A stretch of DNA of 21,704 nucleotides from a virus, in IMG/VR virus record IMGVR_UViG_3300010883_000585, positions 1 through 21,704 of that record; one strand, given 5' to 3'. Positions 5,321 to 15,970 of the stretch are shown piece by piece (positions within the stretch are counted from its first letter, which is position 1; each line of letters opens with the position of its first letter). A program made the translations under genes and the position numbers. Under the pieces are notes generated by a model. That model ran no database searches. It was not told the origin of the DNA and was given only the letters and a program-made list of their open reading frames with translations.

Positions 5321-5797
5321 TCAATTGATGAATACCGGGATATTTATTGGAGGATTTTCAAACTCCGGGAGTAGTTTCTTTTTAACGATCTCTTTTCCAC
5401 AGGCCTTATCTACAACAGACCCCGCCAACCCTATTACAGACACGATTGTCGTCGCGTTTTTTACTGCTGGAGAAGTCAACATAAATTGGTCACCACCGGG
5501 GAAAATCAAAATCGTCCCGACTGGAAGCTCGGTGGAAAGTGGGAAAACCGTTAAAGAAGTAGCTCCATGAGAATACCCTTCAGCGAAATTGATAGTAGCA
5601 GTAATTTTGCGGGGCTGTAACGCACTTATTAATTTTTCCTTTGTTTTTTCGACAGCTTCTTCCACTACATTCTCCACTAGGGCCTCTACGGCCTTCTCTA
5701 CGGCCTTTTCTTTAATATCTTCTCCCTTGATAGCCCAAAAAGCAAATGCGGCTATTAGAGCTAAAACTATGACCCCTATAATCAGATTCTTCCTCAT
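5321..5797 (-). CDS. membrane-anchored protein carrying a module shared with the tail-tube-like protein
   Basis: 158 residues. Residues 4-22 (NLIIGVIVLALIAAFAFWA) form an N-terminal anchor. Residues 26-58 are an amphipathic helix built of repeated KAVEKAVEALVE-like units. Residues 66-127 form a compact domain (GYSHGATSLTVFPL, LPVGTILIFPGGD, FMLTSPAVKNATTIVSVIGL) that matches residues about 452-513 of the tail-tube-like protein at 15970-17646, at both protein and DNA level. A short tail with Cys133 follows. No signal peptidase site is evident, so it probably stays anchored with the domain outside the cytoplasm. It has its own motif promoter. Known use of the module in a virion protein suggests an assembly or surface role; its purpose here is unknown. 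Confidence 0.72.
   Translation of the reverse strand: MRKNLIIGVIVLALIAAFAFWAIKGEDIKEKAVEKAVEALVENVVEEAVEKTKEKLISALQPRKITATINFAEGYSHGATSLTVFPLSTELPVGTILIFPGGDQFMLTSPAVKNATTIVSVIGLAGSVVDKACGKEIVKKKLLPEFENPPINIPVFIN
5439..5518 (-). repeat. copy 1 of an inverted DNA module shared with 17407-17486
   Basis: The reverse complement of these 80 bases matches 17407-17486 at 71 positions by my hand alignment, including 26 consecutive identical bases (5439-5464 against 17461-17486). Weaker similarity extends through about 5585. The reading frame is the same in both genes. Confidence 0.85.
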
Positions 5798-5802
5798 ATC
5801 TT

Positions 5803-5811
5803 ATATTACAC
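5803..5811 (-). promoter_or_regulatory. GTGTAAWAT-type promoter motif, minus strand
   Basis: Reads GTGTAATAT on the minus strand, with its core ending 8 nt before the ATG at 5797; the predicted leader is about 1 nt and no Shine-Dalgarno exists. Confidence 0.58.
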
Positions 5812-6564: not shown

Positions 6565-7239
6565 TTAATATAAGTCCGAATAATCTATGGCGTTAGTGTT
6601 AGCACTAACTTTGATGCCAAATTTTTTAGCTGCTGTCTTAATCTTACGGAGAGCAGCTTTTTTAGCTTCGGGAGTAATGTCTGTTTGATCCAGTCTTGCT
6701 AAAGCGTTTCGGACATGAGCGGCGTCCGGTATTGGAAGGTGGCGAAGGGAACGAGGAACCGTTTTCCCTGAGTCATCTTTTTTTCCACCGGGTTGGATAT
6801 AGGCGAAGTCAGAGTCGGGCAAGTCATTTTTTTGCTTACTACTCATTTTGGCTGCTTCTGTTTTCTTTTTCCAGTAAGCTTTTCTTTCCTTATCGTATTT
6901 TTCGTCCTTCTTTAAATCATGAATTTCAACACTCTTTTTTTCTGAAGGCATACCCTTCTTAAGTTTATTGATTTTACCCTTGTCATCCTTGACTGCGTCT
7001 TTTTCGTGTTTCCCCTTTTCTTTTTTGGTGTCACGTTTAAGTTCCTTTTTATCGAGTTTGTCCCACTGTTTCTTTGTTTTAGCGGCTTCTGTGGTTTTCT
7101 TGACGGGAACACATTTTTTCTTATCTTCACTTACTTCGTATCCCGGCTTGCACTTCGGCGGGTAACCAGCTTTTTCTTCCGCAAGAAGACCGTCTTCCCT
7201 ATACTTTAAAATTTGATCTGTAAAATCAATATCTTTCAT
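6565..7239 (-). CDS. charged linker protein with C-terminal phage module (LPDSxFAYI...HVRNALARL)
   Basis: 224 residues. The N-terminus holds a Cys-loop (KCKPGYEVSEDKKKCVPV, C29 and C42) of the CxPGYE...C type. Residues about 45-130 are an almost continuous Lys/Glu/Asp helix. Residues about 138-214 form a domain I recognise from many phage proteins: LPDSDFAYIQPGG, KTVPRSLRHLPIPDAAHVR, NALARLDQT, ALRKIKTAAKKFGI. It usually sits at the end of larger phage head or protease proteins (I recall a DUF6582-like assignment); here it is the only globular part. No signal peptide. Motif promoter at 7246-7254. Role unknown, though a head-related origin for the module is likely. Confidence 0.75.
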   Translation of the reverse strand: MKDIDFTDQILKYREDGLLAEEKAGYPPKCKPGYEVSEDKKKCVPVKKTTEAAKTKKQWDKLDKKELKRDTKKEKGKHEKDAVKDDKGKINKLKKGMPSEKKSVEIHDLKKDEKYDKERKAYWKKKTEAAKMSSKQKNDLPDSDFAYIQPGGKKDDSGKTVPRSLRHLPIPDAAHVRNALARLDQTDITPEAKKAALRKIKTAAKKFGIKVSANTNAIDYSDLY

Positions 7240-7245
7240 TTGGTC

Positions 7246-7254
7246 TTTTTACAC
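7246..7254 (-). promoter_or_regulatory. GTGTAAWAT-type promoter motif, minus strand
   Basis: Reads GTGTAAAAA on the minus strand with its core ending 9 nt before the ATG at 7239. It straddles the 3' end region of the upstream lipoprotein gene, so the gene can be transcribed on its own. Confidence 0.52.
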
Positions 7255-8020: not shown

Positions 8021-8029
8021 GTGTAAATT
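8021..8029 (+). promoter_or_regulatory. GTGTAAWAT-type promoter motif
   Basis: GTGTAAATT with its core ending 9 nt before the ATG at 8036. The predicted leader is about 2 nt, and no Shine-Dalgarno lies between. Confidence 0.55.
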
Positions 8030-8035
8030 ACATTG

Positions 8036-8797
8036 ATGCCGAAAGTAAAAAGCACAAGGGACCTTGAGTCTCTTGAGATTTTGGACGGGAAGGTGAAAGT
8101 TCACCAAAGAGAAACACTTAGACAAAAAGACACCTTCTACATAGATGAACTTAACTGGACAGAAAAACAGAAAAAATTCATAGAATTATCCCTTAGAAAA
8201 GAGACTAGGGTCATTTTGTGCAAAGGTCCGGCGGGGAGCTCTAAGACTCTCATTTCTGTTTATGCGGCTTTAAATCTCTTAAACCTAAGCAGAGTATCTG
8301 ATATTATTTATATGAGGTCAGCAGTTGAAAGCTCCGACTCAAGACTAGGTTTTCTTCCGGGAGACGCTGACGAAAAACTCCACTACTACAATCTTCCTTT
8401 TATGGATAAATTAGATGAGTTGTTAAGTGACGTCACGGTTAAGAAGCTACAAAAAGAGAACCGAGTTTCTATACATCCCGTAAATTTTGCACGGGGAATG
8501 AGCTGGAATTCAAAAGCTGTAGTAATGGACGAATCTCAAAACAGTTCTATTAGAGAGATTGTTACTGTCCTCACCAGAATGGGAAAATATTCCAGAGCTT
8601 TTATATTAGCCGATCCTATGCAGACCGACCTGAAAAATGGAAACAGAGGCGGATTCAATAAAATCTTCGATATTTTCGACAACCAAGAAAGCCGAGAAAT
8701 GGGAATAGAGACATTTGAGTTTAGTAATGAGGATATAGTGCGTTCAGAACTAACTAAATTTATTGTCACCAAAATCGCAGAACAAGAAACTATTTAA
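8036..8797 (+). CDS. phoH: PhoH-like ATPase
   Basis: 253 residues. I chose ATG 8036 over the in-frame TTG 8033, which fits the motif spacing. The P-loop reads CKGPAGSSKT (about residues 62-71), Walker B reads VVMDESQN (about 162-169), and ILADPMQTD (about 190-198) matches the PhoH sensor region with the D-P-Q pattern. The NWTEKQKKFI segment before the P-loop resembles the Q-motif-like entry of the family. Length fits stand-alone phage PhoH proteins. PhoH is an RNA-linked NTPase of uncertain biological role, common in marine phages. It overlaps the opposing gene by 8 nt at the 3' end. Strong assignment to the family, weak on role. Confidence 0.9.
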   Translation: MPKVKSTRDLESLEILDGKVKVHQRETLRQKDTFYIDELNWTEKQKKFIELSLRKETRVILCKGPAGSSKTLISVYAALNLLNLSRVSDIIYMRSAVESSDSRLGFLPGDADEKLHYYNLPFMDKLDELLSDVTVKKLQKENRVSIHPVNFARGMSWNSKAVVMDESQNSSIREIVTVLTRMGKYSRAFILADPMQTDLKNGNRGGFNKIFDIFDNQESREMGIETFEFSNEDIVRSELTKFIVTKIAEQETI

Positions 8798-9059
8798 TTT
8801 GTTTATTTATTAATCCGGCCAGAACGGAAGAGAATTTTCTTACTTCTCGTTCGCTTTTGTCCCAAAAGAAGGCATGTGTCACTTCCTCTATTAAGGTGCT
8901 AAGTTTTCTGCGTTTTTTTAGATCTGGGTCTACTAGGATTTTAGGGTTATCTAGTTCTGGGGAATAGCATAATCCATCCGCATTATAACTGTAATGGGGC
9001 TTTTTCCATAGCAGCTCGTATTCTATACCGTCAGAATTTTTGAATTTTACATTTTCCAT
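8790..9059 (-). CDS. metalloprotease-like small protein with degenerate HExxH site
   Basis: 89 residues. The segment KLSTLIEEVTHAFFWDKSEREVRKFSSVLAGLI has the layout of small phage zinc-protease-like proteins, in which HExxHA...W/D..SE..V is normal. Here the first zinc His is Glu, giving EEVTH. The first half (YNADGLCYSPELDNPKILVD) looks like the preceding beta hairpin. If this alignment is right the zinc site is altered and peptidase activity is doubtful. No signal peptide. Motif promoter at 9069-9077; 3' end overlaps phoH by 8 nt. An orthologous group fixed for EEVTH, rather than a decayed enzyme, is possible since the rest is well preserved. Confidence 0.62.
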   Translation of the reverse strand: MENVKFKNSDGIEYELLWKKPHYSYNADGLCYSPELDNPKILVDPDLKKRRKLSTLIEEVTHAFFWDKSEREVRKFSSVLAGLINKQIK

Positions 9060-9068
9060 ATCTTACGG

Positions 9069-9077
9069 ATATTACAC
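9069..9077 (-). promoter_or_regulatory. GTGTAAWAT-type promoter motif, minus strand
   Basis: Reads GTGTAATAT on the minus strand, with its core ending 12 nt before the ATG at 9059. It is divergent from the plus-strand motif at 9112-9120. Confidence 0.55.
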
Positions 9078-9111
9078 TTTTTTTGAAAAATCATGGATTT
9101 TCAGTAAAATA

Positions 9112-9120
9112 GTGTAATAA
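9112..9120 (+). promoter_or_regulatory. GTGTAAWAT-type promoter motif of the sigma/packaging operon
   Basis: GTGTAATAA with its core ending 9 nt before the ATG at 9127; no Shine-Dalgarno. It would drive the whole 9127-14075 operon, including the sigma-like gene, making that gene self-activating if it recognises the motif. Confidence 0.56.
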
Positions 9121-9126
9121 AAGAAA

Positions 9127-9525
9127 ATGAAAATGTATTGTTCAACTTGTGGGTGTGGCACCAGTTACAGCATGGTGAAGCCTAAATTTTGTAGTTCGTG
9201 TGGGGGAACTTTTTCGGCATTAGAAAAAACTCCGGCTAAGAGAGCATTTAAAGCTAGCCCCCAGAATCCTATTGCGACAGTTCAGCAAGAGGTAGAAGAA
9301 GAATTTGAAATGCCGGACATGAATAAACTTGATGTGGATATTAATGTCTCCAGAGCATTTAATGTTATGTCATTTAAAGAAATAGCTGGAACCATTCCGA
9401 ACCACCATGATGATGGTTTCATAAGGGAAGCAGATTCTTCTTATTCAGCAGAGTCCGTTGTTGAAGATTTTATGAGGGACGCGGGATCATCATCCAGAAC
9501 TAATGAGCAAACGCGAAAAACCTAA
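9127..9525 (+). CDS. zinc-ribbon protein overlapping the sigma-like gene
   Basis: 132 residues. The N-terminus MKMYCSTCGCGTSYSMVKPK, followed by FCSSCGG, forms a zinc ribbon (C5, C8, C22, C25; C10 is extra). The remainder is acidic (QQEVEEEFEMPDMNKLDVD) then Ser-rich and probably flexible. An ATG at 9133 is an alternative start. The gene overlaps the sigma-like gene by 23 nt, so their translation is linked, and phages of this type often pair a sigma-like protein with a small co-activator; a transcription-accessory role is therefore a reasonable guess. No enzyme motif is visible. Confidence 0.7.
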   Translation: MKMYCSTCGCGTSYSMVKPKFCSSCGGTFSALEKTPAKRAFKASPQNPIATVQQEVEEEFEMPDMNKLDVDINVSRAFNVMSFKEIAGTIPNHHDDGFIREADSSYSAESVVEDFMRDAGSSSRTNEQTRKT

Positions 9526-10189
9526 ATTCGAAGATTTTATTGGACAAATAGATCTAGAAATTAAAAAAAGAAAATCTAAATGGAATTTAACTGCGTTATC
9601 GTGGATGGATTTCGATGACGTTTCTCAAATTCTAAGAATTCATATATTCAAAAAATGGCATCTATACGACACCAAAAAGCCCCTTAATCCATGGATAAAT
9701 CGTATCATTTCTAATCAGATTAAAAATCTAATTAGAAACAATTACGGCAATTACTGTAGGCCTTGTCTTAAATGCGCAGCTGCGGAAGCTGGAGATTTAT
9801 GTTATATTTATGGAAAACAATCTGCAGCGTGCCCACTTTATGCGAACTGGGAGAAGACAAAAAAACAAGCCTACAATGCTAAACTTCCAGTTTCTATTAA
9901 TGATCATGCTCACGAATTAAATGCGGCGGTCTATATGGATTTGGACATTATGGGGATGATGACGAAATTAAATAAAAAAATGGAAACCACTTTAAAGCCT
10001 GCCGAGTGGAAAATATACAAGGCTCTTTATATTGATGACATGTCTGAAGAAGACGCCGCTTCTCTCATGGGATACAAAACCAATGAGAAGAACAGGGTTC
10101 CCGGTTACAAGCAGATTAAAAACGTAAAAAAGTCCATTATTAAAAAGGCCAAGAAGATGTTGGAAGACGGAGAAATAGAAATTATATGA
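9503..10189 (+). CDS. divergent phage sigma-like transcription factor with inserted Cys cluster
   Basis: 228 residues. Residues about 20-82 resemble sigma-70 region 2: WMDFDDVSQILRIHIFKKW, then KPLNPWINRIISNQIKNLIR, matching the D-DDV-Q--R------W...PF--W---I--N---NL-R pattern. Residues about 155-220 resemble region 4, with a helix-turn-helix LSEEDAA-type segment (MSEEDAASLMGYKT) and a basic recognition helix (YKQIKNVKKSIIKKAKKM). Between them lies a Cys cluster (CRPCLKC at 85-91, C100, C110), which may bind zinc. The layout recalls late sigma-like factors of T4-like marine phages. Region 3 and the -35 surface are reduced, fitting promoters that have a -10-like element only. It overlaps the next gene by 4 nt. 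Confidence 0.72.
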   Translation: MSKREKPKFEDFIGQIDLEIKKRKSKWNLTALSWMDFDDVSQILRIHIFKKWHLYDTKKPLNPWINRIISNQIKNLIRNNYGNYCRPCLKCAAAEAGDLCYIYGKQSAACPLYANWEKTKKQAYNAKLPVSINDHAHELNAAVYMDLDIMGMMTKLNKKMETTLKPAEWKIYKALYIDDMSEEDAASLMGYKTNEKNRVPGYKQIKNVKKSIIKKAKKMLEDGEIEII

Positions 10190-11295
10190 GCTCAAATAAT
10201 ATAGAACTCACTAAAGAACAGCAGTTGACTCTACTTAACGAATGGAACAATAGGCCTGATGATCCCCCTTATATTAAAGAATTAATTGAATTAGCTTTTC
10301 CTGACATCCCCGAGGACATGAAAGATGGTCGCTCAAAATATGGAAGAGTGGTAAAAAAGTTCCTTTCAGAAAAGAGCCTCGAAGCAAAAGTCTCGCACAA
10401 ATATTATCCTAAAGAAAAGATAGAACTAACGGATAACCAAAAAGAATTCATAGAAAATAATTGTGGAGCCATGAAACCTATGGATATGGTTAAATTGGTT
10501 TTCGAGGATCCGCGAATTTCTCCTTTAGATTTGAGATATAAGATTATGTTGGAATTTTTGGGGACACTCAACAATAAGGTCAAATACTCCGACGTAAATA
10601 GCGAAGAGGCCGTGGAGGGAGGTTATGCTCCTCCTAAGTCAGAAGCTCGAGCGATGGTGCGCGTAAACAAATACGTATATCACGGTATTGATAAAAACAA
10701 AGTCACCCCTAAAATAAAAAGGAATCTAGCTACCCTAATCGGGTACATGCATACGTTCCGTTTTCTTCATCAGATAAGTACTTATAATATTGAGACAGAT
10801 AGAGAATTGTTCGAGAGTAGTTTTGTCAGATATACGTGGGACAAACCTGACCTTACTCAAGAGGAGGTCGATCAGTATATTGTACTCTCTGCGGAAGTTG
10901 TTATTGCCTCCAACATTCAACGACGCGTCGAAAGACTTCAACAACTGTTAGATCAAAACGCAGAAGATACGGAAGGCCGACGAATGGCAATGAGCTTGGT
11001 GGAAGCTATCAACACAGCTCAAACAGAATACAACCAGTGCGTAAACCGACAGACGAAACTGCTCAACGAGCTGAAGGAGAAACGAAGCCATCGGATGAGC
11101 AAGATAATGCAGGAATCCGCTTCTATATTGAACCTCGTGGAACTTTGGAAAGATGAAGAGTCCAGACATAAAATGATTAAGATAGCTGAGCTTCGGAAGA
11201 AAAACGTTTCCAAAGAGATAGAAAGGCTGAGCTCAATGGAAGAAATCAAATCTCGCATTATGGGGATTAGTGAAGAGGAGATTCTAAATGGTTAG
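10186..11295 (+). CDS. helical protein upstream of terminase, possible small-terminase-type DNA-binding protein
   Basis: 369 residues, starting in an ATGA overlap. The first 150 residues hold two similar short helical repeats: PYIKELIELAFPDIPEDMKDG with SKYGRVVKKFL, and CGAMKPMDMVKLVFEDPRIS with LRYKIMLEFL, each looking like a small helix-turn-helix. Residues about 160-230 are helical with aromatic clusters; residues about 230-369 are strongly coiled coil (IQRRVERLQQLLDQ, KLLNELKEKRSHRMSK, KIAELRKKNVSKEIERLSS). No enzymatic motif. Position two genes before the large terminase and a repeated N-terminal DNA-binding look suggest a small terminase or packaging cofactor; the coiled coil would serve oligomerisation. 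Small terminases are usually shorter, so the role stays open. Confidence 0.6.
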   Translation: MSSNNIELTKEQQLTLLNEWNNRPDDPPYIKELIELAFPDIPEDMKDGRSKYGRVVKKFLSEKSLEAKVSHKYYPKEKIELTDNQKEFIENNCGAMKPMDMVKLVFEDPRISPLDLRYKIMLEFLGTLNNKVKYSDVNSEEAVEGGYAPPKSEARAMVRVNKYVYHGIDKNKVTPKIKRNLATLIGYMHTFRFLHQISTYNIETDRELFESSFVRYTWDKPDLTQEEVDQYIVLSAEVVIASNIQRRVERLQQLLDQNAEDTEGRRMAMSLVEAINTAQTEYNQCVNRQTKLLNELKEKRSHRMSKIMQESASILNLVELWKDEESRHKMIKIAELRKKNVSKEIERLSSMEEIKSRIMGISEEEILNG

Positions 11296-12241
11296 ATGTA
11301 ATGTTTGTAAAAAAGAATTTGAAGAGGAAAGGAATCTTCATTTTCATATCAAGGCTCACAAGCTTTCTATAGGGGATTACTATCAAACTCAATTTCCTCG
11401 ACACGATCTCCATACAAAAGAGATAATAAAATTTAAAAATAAAGAGCAGTATTTTTCTACCGACTTCAACAATAAGAGAAATCTGAAAAGTTGGCTTAAG
11501 AAGGCCTCTTTGGAAAAAGCTAGAGAATATTGCAAAGGACTCTTAATAAAAAGGAAGAGAGACAAAGGTTTAGAGTATACCCCAACCGAAGTAGAACTTC
11601 GAACACTTCTAGCTCCTCCTATATCTTATTATCAGATAATTTTTGAAGACTACTACAAGTTATGCGAAGACATAGGCTTGAAGAATAAGCTCTCCCCTTT
11701 TCCTCCTAAAGATTCAGACGGGAAAATAAAATTCAAGGAGGAATTTAATAAAAAACATCTTATCTACATTGACTCGCGAGAACAAAACCCCCTTAAAATA
11801 AAGGACTTTCCCACAGAAGTTAAAGGGTTGAAGTTCGGAGACTATTGCCTTAATGACAAGGAGAAAACCGGAAACTGTTATATTGAGAGAAAGTCTGTTC
11901 CTGATCTTATTGGGACTTTGAGTGCCGGTTTGGAAAGATTTGAAAACGAAATAAAACGAGCCGAGGAGCAAGACGCGTATATGGTTATTCTGGTGGAAAG
12001 AAAGCTGGCGGAGTGTTTGGCGTTCAACAGGCTTCCGTATGTATACCAAAAAAATACTCGAGTAACTCCTGATTTTATTTTTCATAACGTCAGAGAGTTA
12101 ATTCAAAAATTTTCACATATTCAATTCCTATTTGTTGATGGAAGAGTAGAGTGCGTAAGGATAGTTAAGAAGCTCTTACTTACCCAAATATTAAAAACCA
12201 AATTCGATCTGCAGTTAGCGTACGATTTAAAATTATTGTAA
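11288..12241 (+). CDS. C2H2 zinc finger fused to an ERCC4 (XPF/Mus81-type) nuclease
   Basis: 317 residues with GAGGAG before an ATG that overlaps the previous gene by 8 nt. An N-terminal C2H2 finger (C4, C7, H20, H24) is followed by the KLSIGDYYQTQFPRHDL extension typical of phage zinc-finger proteins. Residues about 40-140 form a helical middle domain. Residues about 157-290 match the ERCC4 nuclease fold: YIDSREQ (D162, R164, E165), FGDY (D185), YIERKSVPDL (E200, R201, K202), then RFENEIKRAEE and VILVE. All core acidic and basic residues of the ERK motif are present. This superfamily cuts branched or flapped DNA. Its location directly before the large terminase suggests trimming or resolving DNA before packaging, which is inference. 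Confidence 0.83.
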   Translation: MVRCNVCKKEFEEERNLHFHIKAHKLSIGDYYQTQFPRHDLHTKEIIKFKNKEQYFSTDFNNKRNLKSWLKKASLEKAREYCKGLLIKRKRDKGLEYTPTEVELRTLLAPPISYYQIIFEDYYKLCEDIGLKNKLSPFPPKDSDGKIKFKEEFNKKHLIYIDSREQNPLKIKDFPTEVKGLKFGDYCLNDKEKTGNCYIERKSVPDLIGTLSAGLERFENEIKRAEEQDAYMVILVERKLAECLAFNRLPYVYQKNTRVTPDFIFHNVRELIQKFSHIQFLFVDGRVECVRIVKKLLLTQILKTKFDLQLAYDLKLL

Positions 12242-12242
12242 C

Positions 12243-14075
12243 ATGTGGTATTGTCCAGAGAAATATAATAAACCTATCGTAAACGTAAACAAGGAGTCCC
12301 TTGATCTACAGGGGGCGCTTGGGGATAGACAGGCGAAGATTTCATTAGCTAAGTTTATGCGGTCTAATCTCGGGTTTACGACAGAGCTTTTGTCAGGGAT
12401 TAAATTAGCCCTTTATCAAGAGATAACCCTCAAGGCGTTCTTCAACAGGAATTTCAATATGTGCGTTTGGGGTCGTGGTTGTGGTAAGAGCTTCATAGCG
12501 GCGGTTTATTGTTTTCTTCAATGCATTTTCGAGCCCCGCACTAAAATTCTGATAGCTGGACCCACCTTCCGTACGGCTAGATTTATTTTTAATAATATAG
12601 AAAAAATAGTCGAATCGAAGGAAGCGCAAATGTTAGCTCACGCTTTCGGCGCCAAATCCAAACGTAACGATCAGTTCGAGTGGAAAATCAATGAGGGGAC
12701 AATAACAGCTATTCCGTTAAGCGGAGAAAAGATTCGCGGATTTCGCGCTAACGTGTTGGTTCTTGATGAGTTCATGTTGCTTCCAGAAGAGACTATTAGA
12801 ACAGTATTGATGCCTTTTTTGGTGGCTCCTCAAGACATGGCAGAAAGAATAAAGATAAGGGAGATGGAAGACGACCTTATCGAAAAAGGACAAATGAAGG
12901 AGAAAGATAGGATTGTATTTACAAATAACTCTAAGATGATAGCGTTATCTTCGGCAAGCTATAGCTTCGAAAATCTTTATCGAACATATAAGGATTGGAT
13001 GAATAATATTTATTCGGAAGACATTATGCAATCTAATTATTTTATTTCACAAATGGGTTTCGAATCTATTCCCGAAGATATGATTGATCGTACTGTTATC
13101 GACGACGCGAGAACGGGAGGATCGTCCAGCTCATCGTTTTTGCGGGAATATGCAGCCCAGTTTACTGATGGAAGCGATAGTTATTTCAGTGCTAAAAAAA
13201 TGCATCAATGCACTATCCCTGACGGGGAGAAACAACACACTTTAGTAAAAGGAGAGAGAGACAAAGAATATATTTTGGCTATTGACCCAAGTTTCAGCAA
13301 CAGCCCATCTTCTGACTTCTTTGCCATGTCTGTGCTGGAGCTAGACGAAGAAAAACCCACTTCTTCCACATTGGTTCATGGTTATGCTGTCGCGGGAGGA
13401 AACTTAAAGGATCATATCAAATACCTACATTATTTAGTAAATCATTTCAATTTCTCAATGATAATTATAGATAACGCGGGATATCAATTTATAGATAGTG
13501 CTAACGAATCCGAGCTGTTCCAAAGTTCACGTACCGAAATTAAATTTTTTGATTTTAATAGCGATAAGGAAGGAGTAGAGTACCAAAAGGTACTTATAGC
13601 CGCCAAACGGCAATACAACAAAAAAGAAAACGTAATTTGCTTCAAACAGCTCTTTTCTTCTACTTTCCTTCGGGAAGCCAACGAATATCTTCAGGCATCT
13701 ATTGACCACAAGAGAATCTGGTTCGCCTCTCGTACAGCGGCCTGCGGAAGCTTTTTCGATAAAGTCTCCGCTCAGGCAGTTCCTATAAAACTGATGCCAT
13801 ATGAAAACAAAGGGGATTTAATAGAGTTTCAAGACAACATAATATACCAATCTAAAAAACAATGTGCTCTCGTAGAAGTTAAAACAACGGCAAAAGGCAC
13901 TCAAACCTTCGATCTTCCCCAGCATCTTAAAAGAAGCACCTCGGCGAATAGGGCAAGAAAGGATAACTATACCACTTTAATGTTGGGGGACTGGGCCGTT
14001 AAATGCTATAATGATATTAAAAATACCAAAGTTGATCAAGTTAGTCACACGTTTACTCCCAGAATGATCGCTTAG
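12243..14075 (+). CDS. terL: terminase large subunit
   Basis: 610 residues, starting 1 nt after the previous stop. The ATPase domain has Walker A GRGCGKS (77-83), Walker B VLVLDE (171-176) and coupling motif SSAS (236-239). The RNase H-like nuclease domain shows LAIDPS (D348), IIIDNAG (D410) and a third Asp in RKDNYTTLMLGDW (D574), the three metal ligands expected. This ATP-driven motor cuts concatemeric DNA and packs it into the prohead through the portal. Length is normal and no residue is missing. It ends the operon that began at 9127; the portal follows with its own motif promoter. Confidence 0.96.
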   Translation: MWYCPEKYNKPIVNVNKESLDLQGALGDRQAKISLAKFMRSNLGFTTELLSGIKLALYQEITLKAFFNRNFNMCVWGRGCGKSFIAAVYCFLQCIFEPRTKILIAGPTFRTARFIFNNIEKIVESKEAQMLAHAFGAKSKRNDQFEWKINEGTITAIPLSGEKIRGFRANVLVLDEFMLLPEETIRTVLMPFLVAPQDMAERIKIREMEDDLIEKGQMKEKDRIVFTNNSKMIALSSASYSFENLYRTYKDWMNNIYSEDIMQSNYFISQMGFESIPEDMIDRTVIDDARTGGSSSSSFLREYAAQFTDGSDSYFSAKKMHQCTIPDGEKQHTLVKGERDKEYILAIDPSFSNSPSSDFFAMSVLELDEEKPTSSTLVHGYAVAGGNLKDHIKYLHYLVNHFNFSMIIIDNAGYQFIDSANESELFQSSRTEIKFFDFNSDKEGVEYQKVLIAAKRQYNKKENVICFKQLFSSTFLREANEYLQASIDHKRIWFASRTAACGSFFDKVSAQAVPIKLMPYENKGDLIEFQDNIIYQSKKQCALVEVKTTAKGTQTFDLPQHLKRSTSANRARKDNYTTLMLGDWAVKCYNDIKNTKVDQVSHTFTPRMIA

Positions 14076-14084
14076 GTGTAAAAT
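14076..14084 (+). promoter_or_regulatory. GTGTAAWAT-type promoter motif before the portal gene
   Basis: GTGTAAAAT, a perfect core, immediately after the terminase stop and with the core ending 14 nt before the portal ATG at 14096. It begins a new unit for the virion genes. Confidence 0.56.
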
Positions 14085-14095
14085 TAAAGTAAAAC

Positions 14096-15970
14096 ATGGC
14101 AGTAAGGAAGAAAACAGAACAAGGTGCGGAACCTTTGATGGCTAAGCATGAAACCGTAGCTAGCGCTACGAGAACACGGCGAAACAAGGCTGCTGACATT
14201 ATTAGGACCGACCGCTTTAGGAATATCGAAAACGGTATGATACCGTTTAAGTATTCTCGAGGAGTAACAAATAATTCAAATATTGATGTTAGGGACACTA
14301 TAATTCTCTGTCAAAAAGCTTATTATAATTTTTCAGTTTTTCGAAACACTATAGATTTAATGACCGAGTTTTCCATTAGTAATTTGTACTATACCGGGGG
14401 AAGTCGTAAGTCTAGAGAGTTTTTTGAAACCCTGTTCGGGAGAATAAATATTGATGATCTTCAAAGTAGATTTTTCCGTGAATACTATAGGTCTGGCAAT
14501 GTTTTCGTCTATAGATTTAATGCTAAAATGGACAAGTCTGACGCTTTTAAAATCAATCAAACGTTTGGGTTGAGTGAGGCTAATGAAAATATTGAAATTC
14601 CATCTAAATATATAATTCTTAATCCTTCTGATATTCAGCTCCAAGGAAGCATTGCGTTTAGTTCGGGGGTCTATTATAAAGTAGTCACCGATTATGAACT
14701 GCAAATTTTGCGGAATCCTCAAACGCAAGAACAAAAGGAAGTTTTTGAAAGCCTCCCGGAAGAAACAAAAAAACTAATAAAGGAGACTAACCGCACGGGA
14801 ATGGCTGCTGTTACCATTCCCCTTAACACGGATAGGCTCGTGGCTGTTTTCTATAAGAAGCAAGATTATGAACCATTTGCCGTACCTATGGGGTATCCCG
14901 TATTGGAAGACATCAACTGGAAACAGGAGATGAAACAAATGGACATGGCAGTGGCAAGAACCACTAACCAAGCCATTCTTCTTATAACCATGGGTACCAA
15001 GCCAGAAGAGGGAGGAATAAACCAAAAGAATCTAATGGCGATGCAGAAGCTCTTTGAAAACGAGTCTGTGGGTCGCGTATTAATCTCTGACTATACTACC
15101 GACGCCAAATTTGTTATTCCCGACATTGGCAGTATTTTAGATCCCAAAAAATATGATGTAGTCAATCAGGACATTCAAATGGGGTTGAATAACATTCTGT
15201 TGAGTGACGAGAAATTTGCCAATACGAGCATCAAGGTTCAGGTTTTTATGGAAAGACTTAAGCAGGGACGGAGAGTCTTCTTGGAGAACTTTTTGATGCC
15301 GGAAATTCGGAGGGTCTCGAAGGAAATGGGATTCAAGAATTATCCTGACGCTCATTTTGAAGAGGTCGACCTAAGAGACACGTCTGTCTATTCTAGAATA
15401 TATAGTCGACTCATTGAACTTGGCGTTCTCACCCCTGAAGAGGGAATGCAGGCTATCGAGTCAGGACGTTTTCCTACCCCAGAAGAGTCTATTGAATCGC
15501 AAAAAAGGTTCCAAGAGTTGAAGAGCGAAGGGTTATATGAACCCTTGATAGGTGGCTCAAAGATGGCACAAATGACGGGTCGTCCACCGGGGACGAAAAC
15601 GCCTAAGCAGGAAGACAAGAAAACTCCGGTAGGAACCAAAGCTACGCTTAATTTTAGTCTGGCTAAAATACAGGAGCACTTAACCCTTTCTGACAAATTA
15701 AATTTAGAAGTGGAGGCGTCTTTAAGGCGTATTCATAAGAGAAAGAGACTCAGCAAGCAGCAAAAAGAAGTAGCGAGAGAAATAACTAATATAGTTATCA
15801 CTAATGAGGACCCGCCGAATTGGCTAGCTAAAGCTGGACGATATGCCGCTGAACCAACAGACAGAAACCATGAAAGGGTTAAGCACGTACAGGATGTCGC
15901 TTACGAACATCAGGTAGACGATTTCTTAGCGGGCATATTGTACGCAAGTATTTATGAAGGGAAAAAGTAA
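14096..15970 (+). CDS. portal protein
   Basis: 624 residues directly after the large terminase. After a basic, disordered N-terminus the protein shows portal features: the ENGMIPFKYSRG and LCQKAYYNFSVFRNTIDLMTEF entry helices, the FFREYYRSGNVFVYRF strand pair, long stem and crown helices near the middle (WKQEMKQMDMAVARTTNQ), and the LIELGVLTPEEGMQAIESGR segment near residue 450 that recurs at portal wing ends. A Pro/Gly/Lys linker (GRPPGTKTPKQEDKKTPVGT) then leads to a helical tail of about 110 residues that most portals lack. The portal is the dodecameric channel at one capsid vertex through which terminase pumps DNA. Its stop overlaps the next ATG (TAATG). Confidence 0.9.
   Translation: MAVRKKTEQGAEPLMAKHETVASATRTRRNKAADIIRTDRFRNIENGMIPFKYSRGVTNNSNIDVRDTIILCQKAYYNFSVFRNTIDLMTEFSISNLYYTGGSRKSREFFETLFGRINIDDLQSRFFREYYRSGNVFVYRFNAKMDKSDAFKINQTFGLSEANENIEIPSKYIILNPSDIQLQGSIAFSSGVYYKVVTDYELQILRNPQTQEQKEVFESLPEETKKLIKETNRTGMAAVTIPLNTDRLVAVFYKKQDYEPFAVPMGYPVLEDINWKQEMKQMDMAVARTTNQAILLITMGTKPEEGGINQKNLMAMQKLFENESVGRVLISDYTTDAKFVIPDIGSILDPKKYDVVNQDIQMGLNNILLSDEKFANTSIKVQVFMERLKQGRRVFLENFLMPEIRRVSKEMGFKNYPDAHFEEVDLRDTSVYSRIYSRLIELGVLTPEEGMQAIESGRFPTPEESIESQKRFQELKSEGLYEPLIGGSKMAQMTGRPPGTKTPKQEDKKTPVGTKATLNFSLAKIQEHLTLSDKLNLEVEASLRRIHKRKRLSKQQKEVAREITNIVITNEDPPNWLAKAGRYAAEPTDRNHERVKHVQDVAYEHQVDDFLAGILYASIYEGKK

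Follow-up and report, generated by a model that had tools for sequence, protein, structure and literature searches.

Large uncultured phages of mostly aquatic origin encode a sigma-70-family protein in which four invariant cysteines separate region 2 from a region-4-like domain, and they place the hexamer GTGTAA, with no -35 partner, before the transcription units of their virion genes. We propose, with moderate confidence, that this protein, here termed Zn-sigma, is the factor that reads GTGTAA. The window, that is, the whole 21.7 kb virus record analysed, contains PhoH, ERCC4-nuclease, large-terminase and portal-like genes, and relatives of its Zn-sigma occur in hundreds of metagenome contigs of an abundant phage group. 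The pair of promoter classes, the two sigma genes and the apparently near-leaderless mRNAs described below amount to a first readable transcription programme for this environmental family, and the GTGTAA rule should permit late units to be annotated in many anonymous contigs. The relevant features of the window are as follows (+, forward strand; -, reverse strand).

2003-2011, +, GTGTAATAT motif before a 142-residue gene (ATG at 2020)
5803-5811, -, GTGTAATAT motif before the gene at 5321-5797
7246-7254, -, GTGTAAAAA motif before the gene at 6565-7239
8021-8027, +, GTGTAAA motif, 15 nt upstream of the PhoH-like gene's start codon (ATG at 8036)
9069-9077, -, GTGTAATAT motif of the divergent 89-residue gene at 8790-9059
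9083-9110, +, predicted sigma70-like promoter of the sigma-terminase operon, TTGAAA (9083-9088), N16, TAAAAT (9105-9110), from clade-A conservation
9112-9120, +, GTGTAATAA candidate late-promoter motif for the sigma-terminase operon, exact match, 6 nt ahead of the Zn-ribbon-like gene's ATG
9127-9525, +, Zn-ribbon-like gene at the operon head, 132 residues
9503-10189, +, Zn-sigma gene, 228 residues, with sigma2, a Cys4 module and a region-4-like domain, from open reading frame, profile and predicted fold
9599-9742, +, sigma region 2, residues 33-80, DFDDV...WHLYD...PWINRIISNQIKNLIRN, from Pfam Sigma70_r2 and alignment with RpoE
9755-9832, +, cysteine cluster C85/C88/C91/C100/C110 with the invariant set CxxC-x8-C-x9-C, from conservation
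9947-10165, +, region-4-like helical domain, residues 149-221, from AlphaFold2 helices and Foldseek, no Pfam region 4 match
10186-11295, +, 369-residue gene of the same operon, no assigned function
11288-12241, +, ERCC4-type nuclease gene of the same operon
12243-14075, +, terminase large subunit gene of the same operon
14076-14082, +, GTGTAAA motif, 20 nt upstream of the portal-like gene at 14096-15970

Judged from its sequence, Zn-sigma is assigned to the sigma-70 family by region 2, as the initial annotation had proposed in calling it a sigma-like factor. The Pfam profile Sigma70_r2 matches residues 33-80 (E=6.1e-6, 26.4 bits against a cut-off of 24 bits) and is matched by 18/18 diverse relatives. 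Over the stretch DFDDV...WINRIISNQIKN, region 2 also aligns with residues 45-88 of E. coli RpoE (hhalign P=0.0024-0.0033). The NCBIfam model TIGR02937 (sigma70-ECF), matched by 18/18 family members, covers residues 30-193 of the window's protein with E=7.6e-8, but the score of 32.1 bits is under the curated cut-off of 42.9 bits, and Zn-sigma is therefore not a canonical ECF member. The profile comparisons with gp55 and ECF families proposed in that annotation thus divide: ECF similarity holds for region 2 though not at the curated threshold, and a gp55-type origin was rejected (hhalign P=0.4, versus 0.0033 for RpoE region 2).

Region 4 is likely present as well, as indicated by the coverage of TIGR02937, predicted helices and fold matches, with no separate Pfam region 4 match in Zn-sigma. 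An AlphaFold2 model that used 50 window and locus proteins as its alignment (pLDDT 74, pTM 0.42) superseded one from a shallow alignment (pLDDT 54), and it depicts a sigma2-like helical part, a badly ordered cysteine section and four C-terminal helices (residues 149-163, 166-177, 182-188 and 200-221). Foldseek searches of the PDB and a viral library return almost exclusively sigma factors, including SigH, SigW and CnrH, aligned over almost the full length, so that structure prediction of the protein alone favours a sigma fold, by matches that are individually weak (every E >0.001). Profile searches of the PDB gave only weak region 2 matches to ECF chimeras (5or5, 1h3l); unrelated coiled coils that were also returned were set aside. 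The resulting layout joins sigma2 to a region-4-like domain, without sigma1.1 or sigma3, and replaces the linker by the cysteine module. Given the likely region-4-like domain, the earlier label of a reduced factor is not supported, and a missing domain would not explain why GTGTAA promoters have no -35 signal.

Five cysteines, at residues 85, 88, 91, 100 and 110, lie between region 2 and the region-4-like domain, where a cysteine cluster had indeed been noticed. The last four are kept in 121/121 distinct relatives (56-100% identity) and also in a relative with 33% identity, encoded on a 186 kb contig. C85 is kept in just 88/121 relatives and is dispensable, so the conserved pattern is CxxC-x8-C-x9-C, a putative metal site with four ligands. 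This module sits directly after region 2.4, at the place of region 3.0 in sigma70, and all conserved cysteines fall within residues 88-110, leaving the C-terminus with none. The sequences of T4 gp55, SPO1 gp28, RpoE and FecI contain no comparable module, and the literature searched yielded no sigma factor in which a full Cys4 module separates regions 2 and 4. A tblastn search of phages with the cysteine region gave only chance matches (E=4-8), to a small ORF of Vequintavirinae and a protein from a tail region, which were discarded.

GTGTAAT was seen upstream of genes in the window four times, against 0.2 expected by chance, and the operon of Zn-sigma starts with the motif exactly as first described. 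Among relatives, unbiased counts of upstream words put GTGTAA(T) first in most of the genomes read, with TTGAC-type words forming a second class. All are metagenome contigs of unestimated completeness, with gene starts set by the longest-ATG rule, and close pairs (G010/G011, G004/G007, G009/G015) mean that pooled counts are not fully independent. Four large relatives fetched by means of sigma-2, a second sigma-family gene described below, are the better replicate: they were retrieved without use of the motif or Zn-sigma, all carry Zn-sigma, and each ranks GTGTAA first among upstream hexamers (24/3.0, 26/3.2, 21/2.5 and 23/2.7).

The distribution of the motif is that of a promoter element. GTGTAA[ACT] occurs at -24 to -10 of 135/1355 ORFs, where control patterns were found 10, 1 and 6 times, and at 2/505 genes with an upstream gap of <10 nt. 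It lies at the heads of transcription units, 14-21 nt before start codons, and no -35 signal was seen upstream of it. Between the end of the -10 element and the ATG, the spacing peaks at 7-10 nt for GTGTAAN and at 10 nt for the TTGAC-N17-TAnnnT class, and Shine-Dalgarno-like sequences precede 4% and 5% of the genes in these respective classes, versus 33% of operon-internal genes. Only 1/160 sites carries both GTGTAA and a sigma70-like promoter, and the two kinds of promoter are found in different blocks of the genome: structural, portal, virion and tail-adjacent genes follow GTGTAA, and RNR and PHP genes follow the TTGAC class. We infer that GTGTAA is a -10-only promoter whose transcripts begin at or a few nucleotides before the AUG, and gene content suggests that the genes under it are late genes. 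The earlier suggestion of promoters with only a -10-like element is thereby supported, as a phage-wide promoter-like motif on structural and packaging genes, the sigma-terminase operon among them.

The sigma-terminase operon appears to be started from a promoter of the other kind. TTGAAA-N16-TAnnAT with a variable spacer is present at its start in 48/48 distinct sequences of clade A, the clade of the window, as TTGAAAAA, a variable stretch and then TAnnAT, and GTGTAA follows at 29 or 33 nt from TTGAAA. At this operon, TTGAAA-N17-TATAAT is found in two other large genomes and TTGAAG-N16-TATAAT in one more, and many relatives in clade C have a TATAAT-like -10 element there and lack GTGTAA. Feedback through GTGTAA would thus be optional and confined to some clades; the self-activation that had been proposed for Zn-sigma is possible where the motif is present, but it is not general, since the operon has its own sigma70-like promoter. 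The Zn-ribbon-like protein at the operon head, which has two conserved N-terminal CxxC pairs, is encoded directly upstream of most Zn-sigma genes found and is a possible partner of Zn-sigma.

Sigma-2 is a gene of about 200 codons (G001 54857-55456, L278:6001-6597; G002 38782-39384; also in L284, L328 and L352) whose product carries KVKFSTW and ...TQTAINLHN. It has no match in cultured phage records, and profile comparison found no similarity between it and Zn-sigma. Both sigmas are encoded by G001, G002 and G010 and by the five largest Zn-sigma relatives found via sigma-2 (118-186 kb). No multisubunit RNA polymerase was found in five large relatives, a point in favour of the Zn-sigma model; a search for single-subunit enzymes is uninformative, since it gave no signal in control genomes either. 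G010 and G011 have further sigma genes, among them a third one of RpoD/RpoH type with 280 residues (G010 26234-27076, G011 70421-71263; phrog_351, E=4.6e-60). An element, ACTTTCTAGGGAAAAGTTT, is conserved upstream of the sigma-2 operon (G001 53796 and its G002 counterpart).

Since the two sigma genes co-occur, their presence does not decide which product reads GTGTAA, and because the motif is identical in every clade, covariation of sigma and motif is equally uninformative. The initial annotation had named Zn-sigma as the candidate; sigma homology and the logic of its operon uphold that proposal, but the assignment is not unique, given that the unrelated sigma-2 is encoded alongside. An unlikely but substantial alternative is that sigma-2 reads GTGTAA and that Zn-sigma controls a small third promoter class or modulates late transcription. 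Sigma-2 is present in every near-complete relative examined, and its own operon never has GTGTAA (7 genomes), as expected of an upstream regulator. In the most divergent genome, G021, where the motif is unchanged, region 2.3-2.4 is ~30% conserved in Zn-sigma versus ~45% in sigma-2, the KVKFSTW segment being the better conserved, so that conservation of region 2.4 in Zn-sigma is comparable to or weaker than that in sigma-2. The region-4-like domain, moreover, would predict a -35 signal, and the moderate AlphaFold2 confidence and weak fold E-values also count against the Zn-sigma model. However, unit heads lacking both motifs revealed no third class for Zn-sigma to serve (a candidate, TCTTG, is a variant -35 element belonging to the sigma70 class), which argues for Zn-sigma as the factor acting at GTGTAA. 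Its operon is often not under GTGTAA, unlike what would be expected of a factor downstream in a cascade; a retained bipartite promoter with GTGTAA as an option is instead what the reading factor itself should have, and the GTGTAA found there in several clades fits autoregulation.

Two further explanations do without either phage sigma as the sole reader or without a promoter at all. Host sigma70 or another host sigma might read GTGTAA aided by a phage activator or by Zn-sigma and sigma-2 jointly, making Zn-sigma a gp33-like co-activator. A motif without a -35 partner is seen in activator- and co-activator-dependent systems, and a Zn-ribbon protein is encoded next to Zn-sigma, but we regard this arrangement as distinctly improbable: gp33-type co-activators lack region 2, which is complete in Zn-sigma, and the GTGTAA core differs from the TAnnnT of the sigma70 class, with which it hardly overlaps. 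Scarcely probable at all is a role for GTGTAA as a translation-initiation signal or repressor operator near start codons. Its fixed position before the ATG could be read that way, as could the two GTGTA copies in the window's intergenic region, which flank the TTGAAA promoter as an inverted pair, TACAC...GTGTA. The near absence of the motif before operon-internal genes and the identical geometry and lack of Shine-Dalgarno sequences in the sigma70-like class led us to reject a ribosome-binding signal, and mutual exclusion of the promoter classes makes it unlikely that the motif is an operator superimposed on sigma70 promoters.

With Zn-sigma as the reading factor, host sigma70 would first transcribe the sigma-terminase operon from its TTGAAA-N16/17-TAnnAT promoter. 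Zn-sigma would then bind the host core polymerase through sigma2 and the region-4-like domain, redirect it, and recognise GTGTAA(W) as a stand-alone -10 element. Initiation only a few nucleotides from the start codon would leave late mRNAs with no leader or almost none. In some clades, including that of the window, GTGTAA just downstream of the operon's sigma70-like promoter would provide positive feedback. A structural zinc most likely occupies the Cys4 module, which would stand in for region 3.0 or the sigma finger. A -10-only promoter paired with a region-4-like domain raises the question of the part played by this insertion in promoter recognition. A bolder version, tentative and rather doubtful, is that the module has supplanted region 3.0 or the sigma finger, reads GTG and sets the start at the start codon, making the whole late programme of this large and globally common phage group leaderless.

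Comparison with known systems leads us to classify Zn-sigma as a probable phage late sigma factor of a known general kind, with the Cys4 module between regions 2 and 4 as its new feature. A tblastn search against 50,697 phage records gave no match to Zn-sigma, even at E=10 for two relatives. The late promoters of T4 gp55 (TATAAATA) likewise have a -10-like element only, and gp55 is not known to have a canonical region 4. SPO1 also encodes multiple sigmas of its own, which act in a temporal cascade, although its gp28 lacks CxxC-x8-C-x9-C. The sigma2-linker-sigma4 layout is shared with ECF factors such as E. coli RpoE, M. tuberculosis SigH and SigW; Zn-sigma differs in the Cys4 module of its linker, in -10-only rather than bipartite promoters and in the absence of a membrane-stress setting. 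The metal-sensing ECF factors CorE/CorE2 and OrbS resemble Zn-sigma in having a cysteine-based metal site, putative in our case, inside an ECF-type sigma. They have C-terminal Cys-rich domains, and the sigma2-sigma4 linker of CorE contains a CXC (PMC8999054, PMC9023288), whereas Zn-sigma, unlike the CorE type (ECF44/ECF238), carries a complete Cys4 set in the linker and no Cys-rich C-terminus.

The closest functional parallels come from phage late sigmas that work with host polymerase. Middle and late promoters of phiEco32 gp36 consist of a single element, tAATGTAtA, with the start 6-8 nt downstream, and gp36 is described as lacking region 4 (PMC8948821). Zn-sigma would similarly redirect host RNA polymerase to late structural genes through a single element without a -35, its start site being taken only from the distance to the ATG, but it differs in motif, in having a region-4-like domain and in its Cys module, a feature not described for gp36. 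Phage 7-11 gp47 is a late sigma with region 4 that works with host core polymerase, as Zn-sigma is predicted to do; its promoters, however, are bipartite (GTAAtg-N16-aCTA), and no metal site is described for it (PMC8948821).

Several minor observations concern the relatives. The sole match in a genome collection is L082 (NZWA01000041.1), a phage-like contig of 77 kb binned into a Flavobacteriales MAG. TTGAC-N17-TAnnnT promoters are unlike the Bacteroidota consensus, which makes this bin assignment doubtful. A recurrent GTTTTCGGGAATTAAAAAATG stands right before several start codons in L266-L269 (G8c) and L260-L261 (G016) and is possibly a regulatory or recombination element. Directly after a GTGTAA-driven gene lies a gene for a tubulin/FtsZ-family GTPase (L086:9850-11115, G001 69850-71115; PF00091, E=3.2e-11), possibly a phage tubulin in this group. 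Another GTGTAA-driven gene of G001 (L089:3202-4794, G001 123202-124794) encodes a 530-residue protein with ankyrin repeats and a weak match to guanylate/adenylate cyclases.
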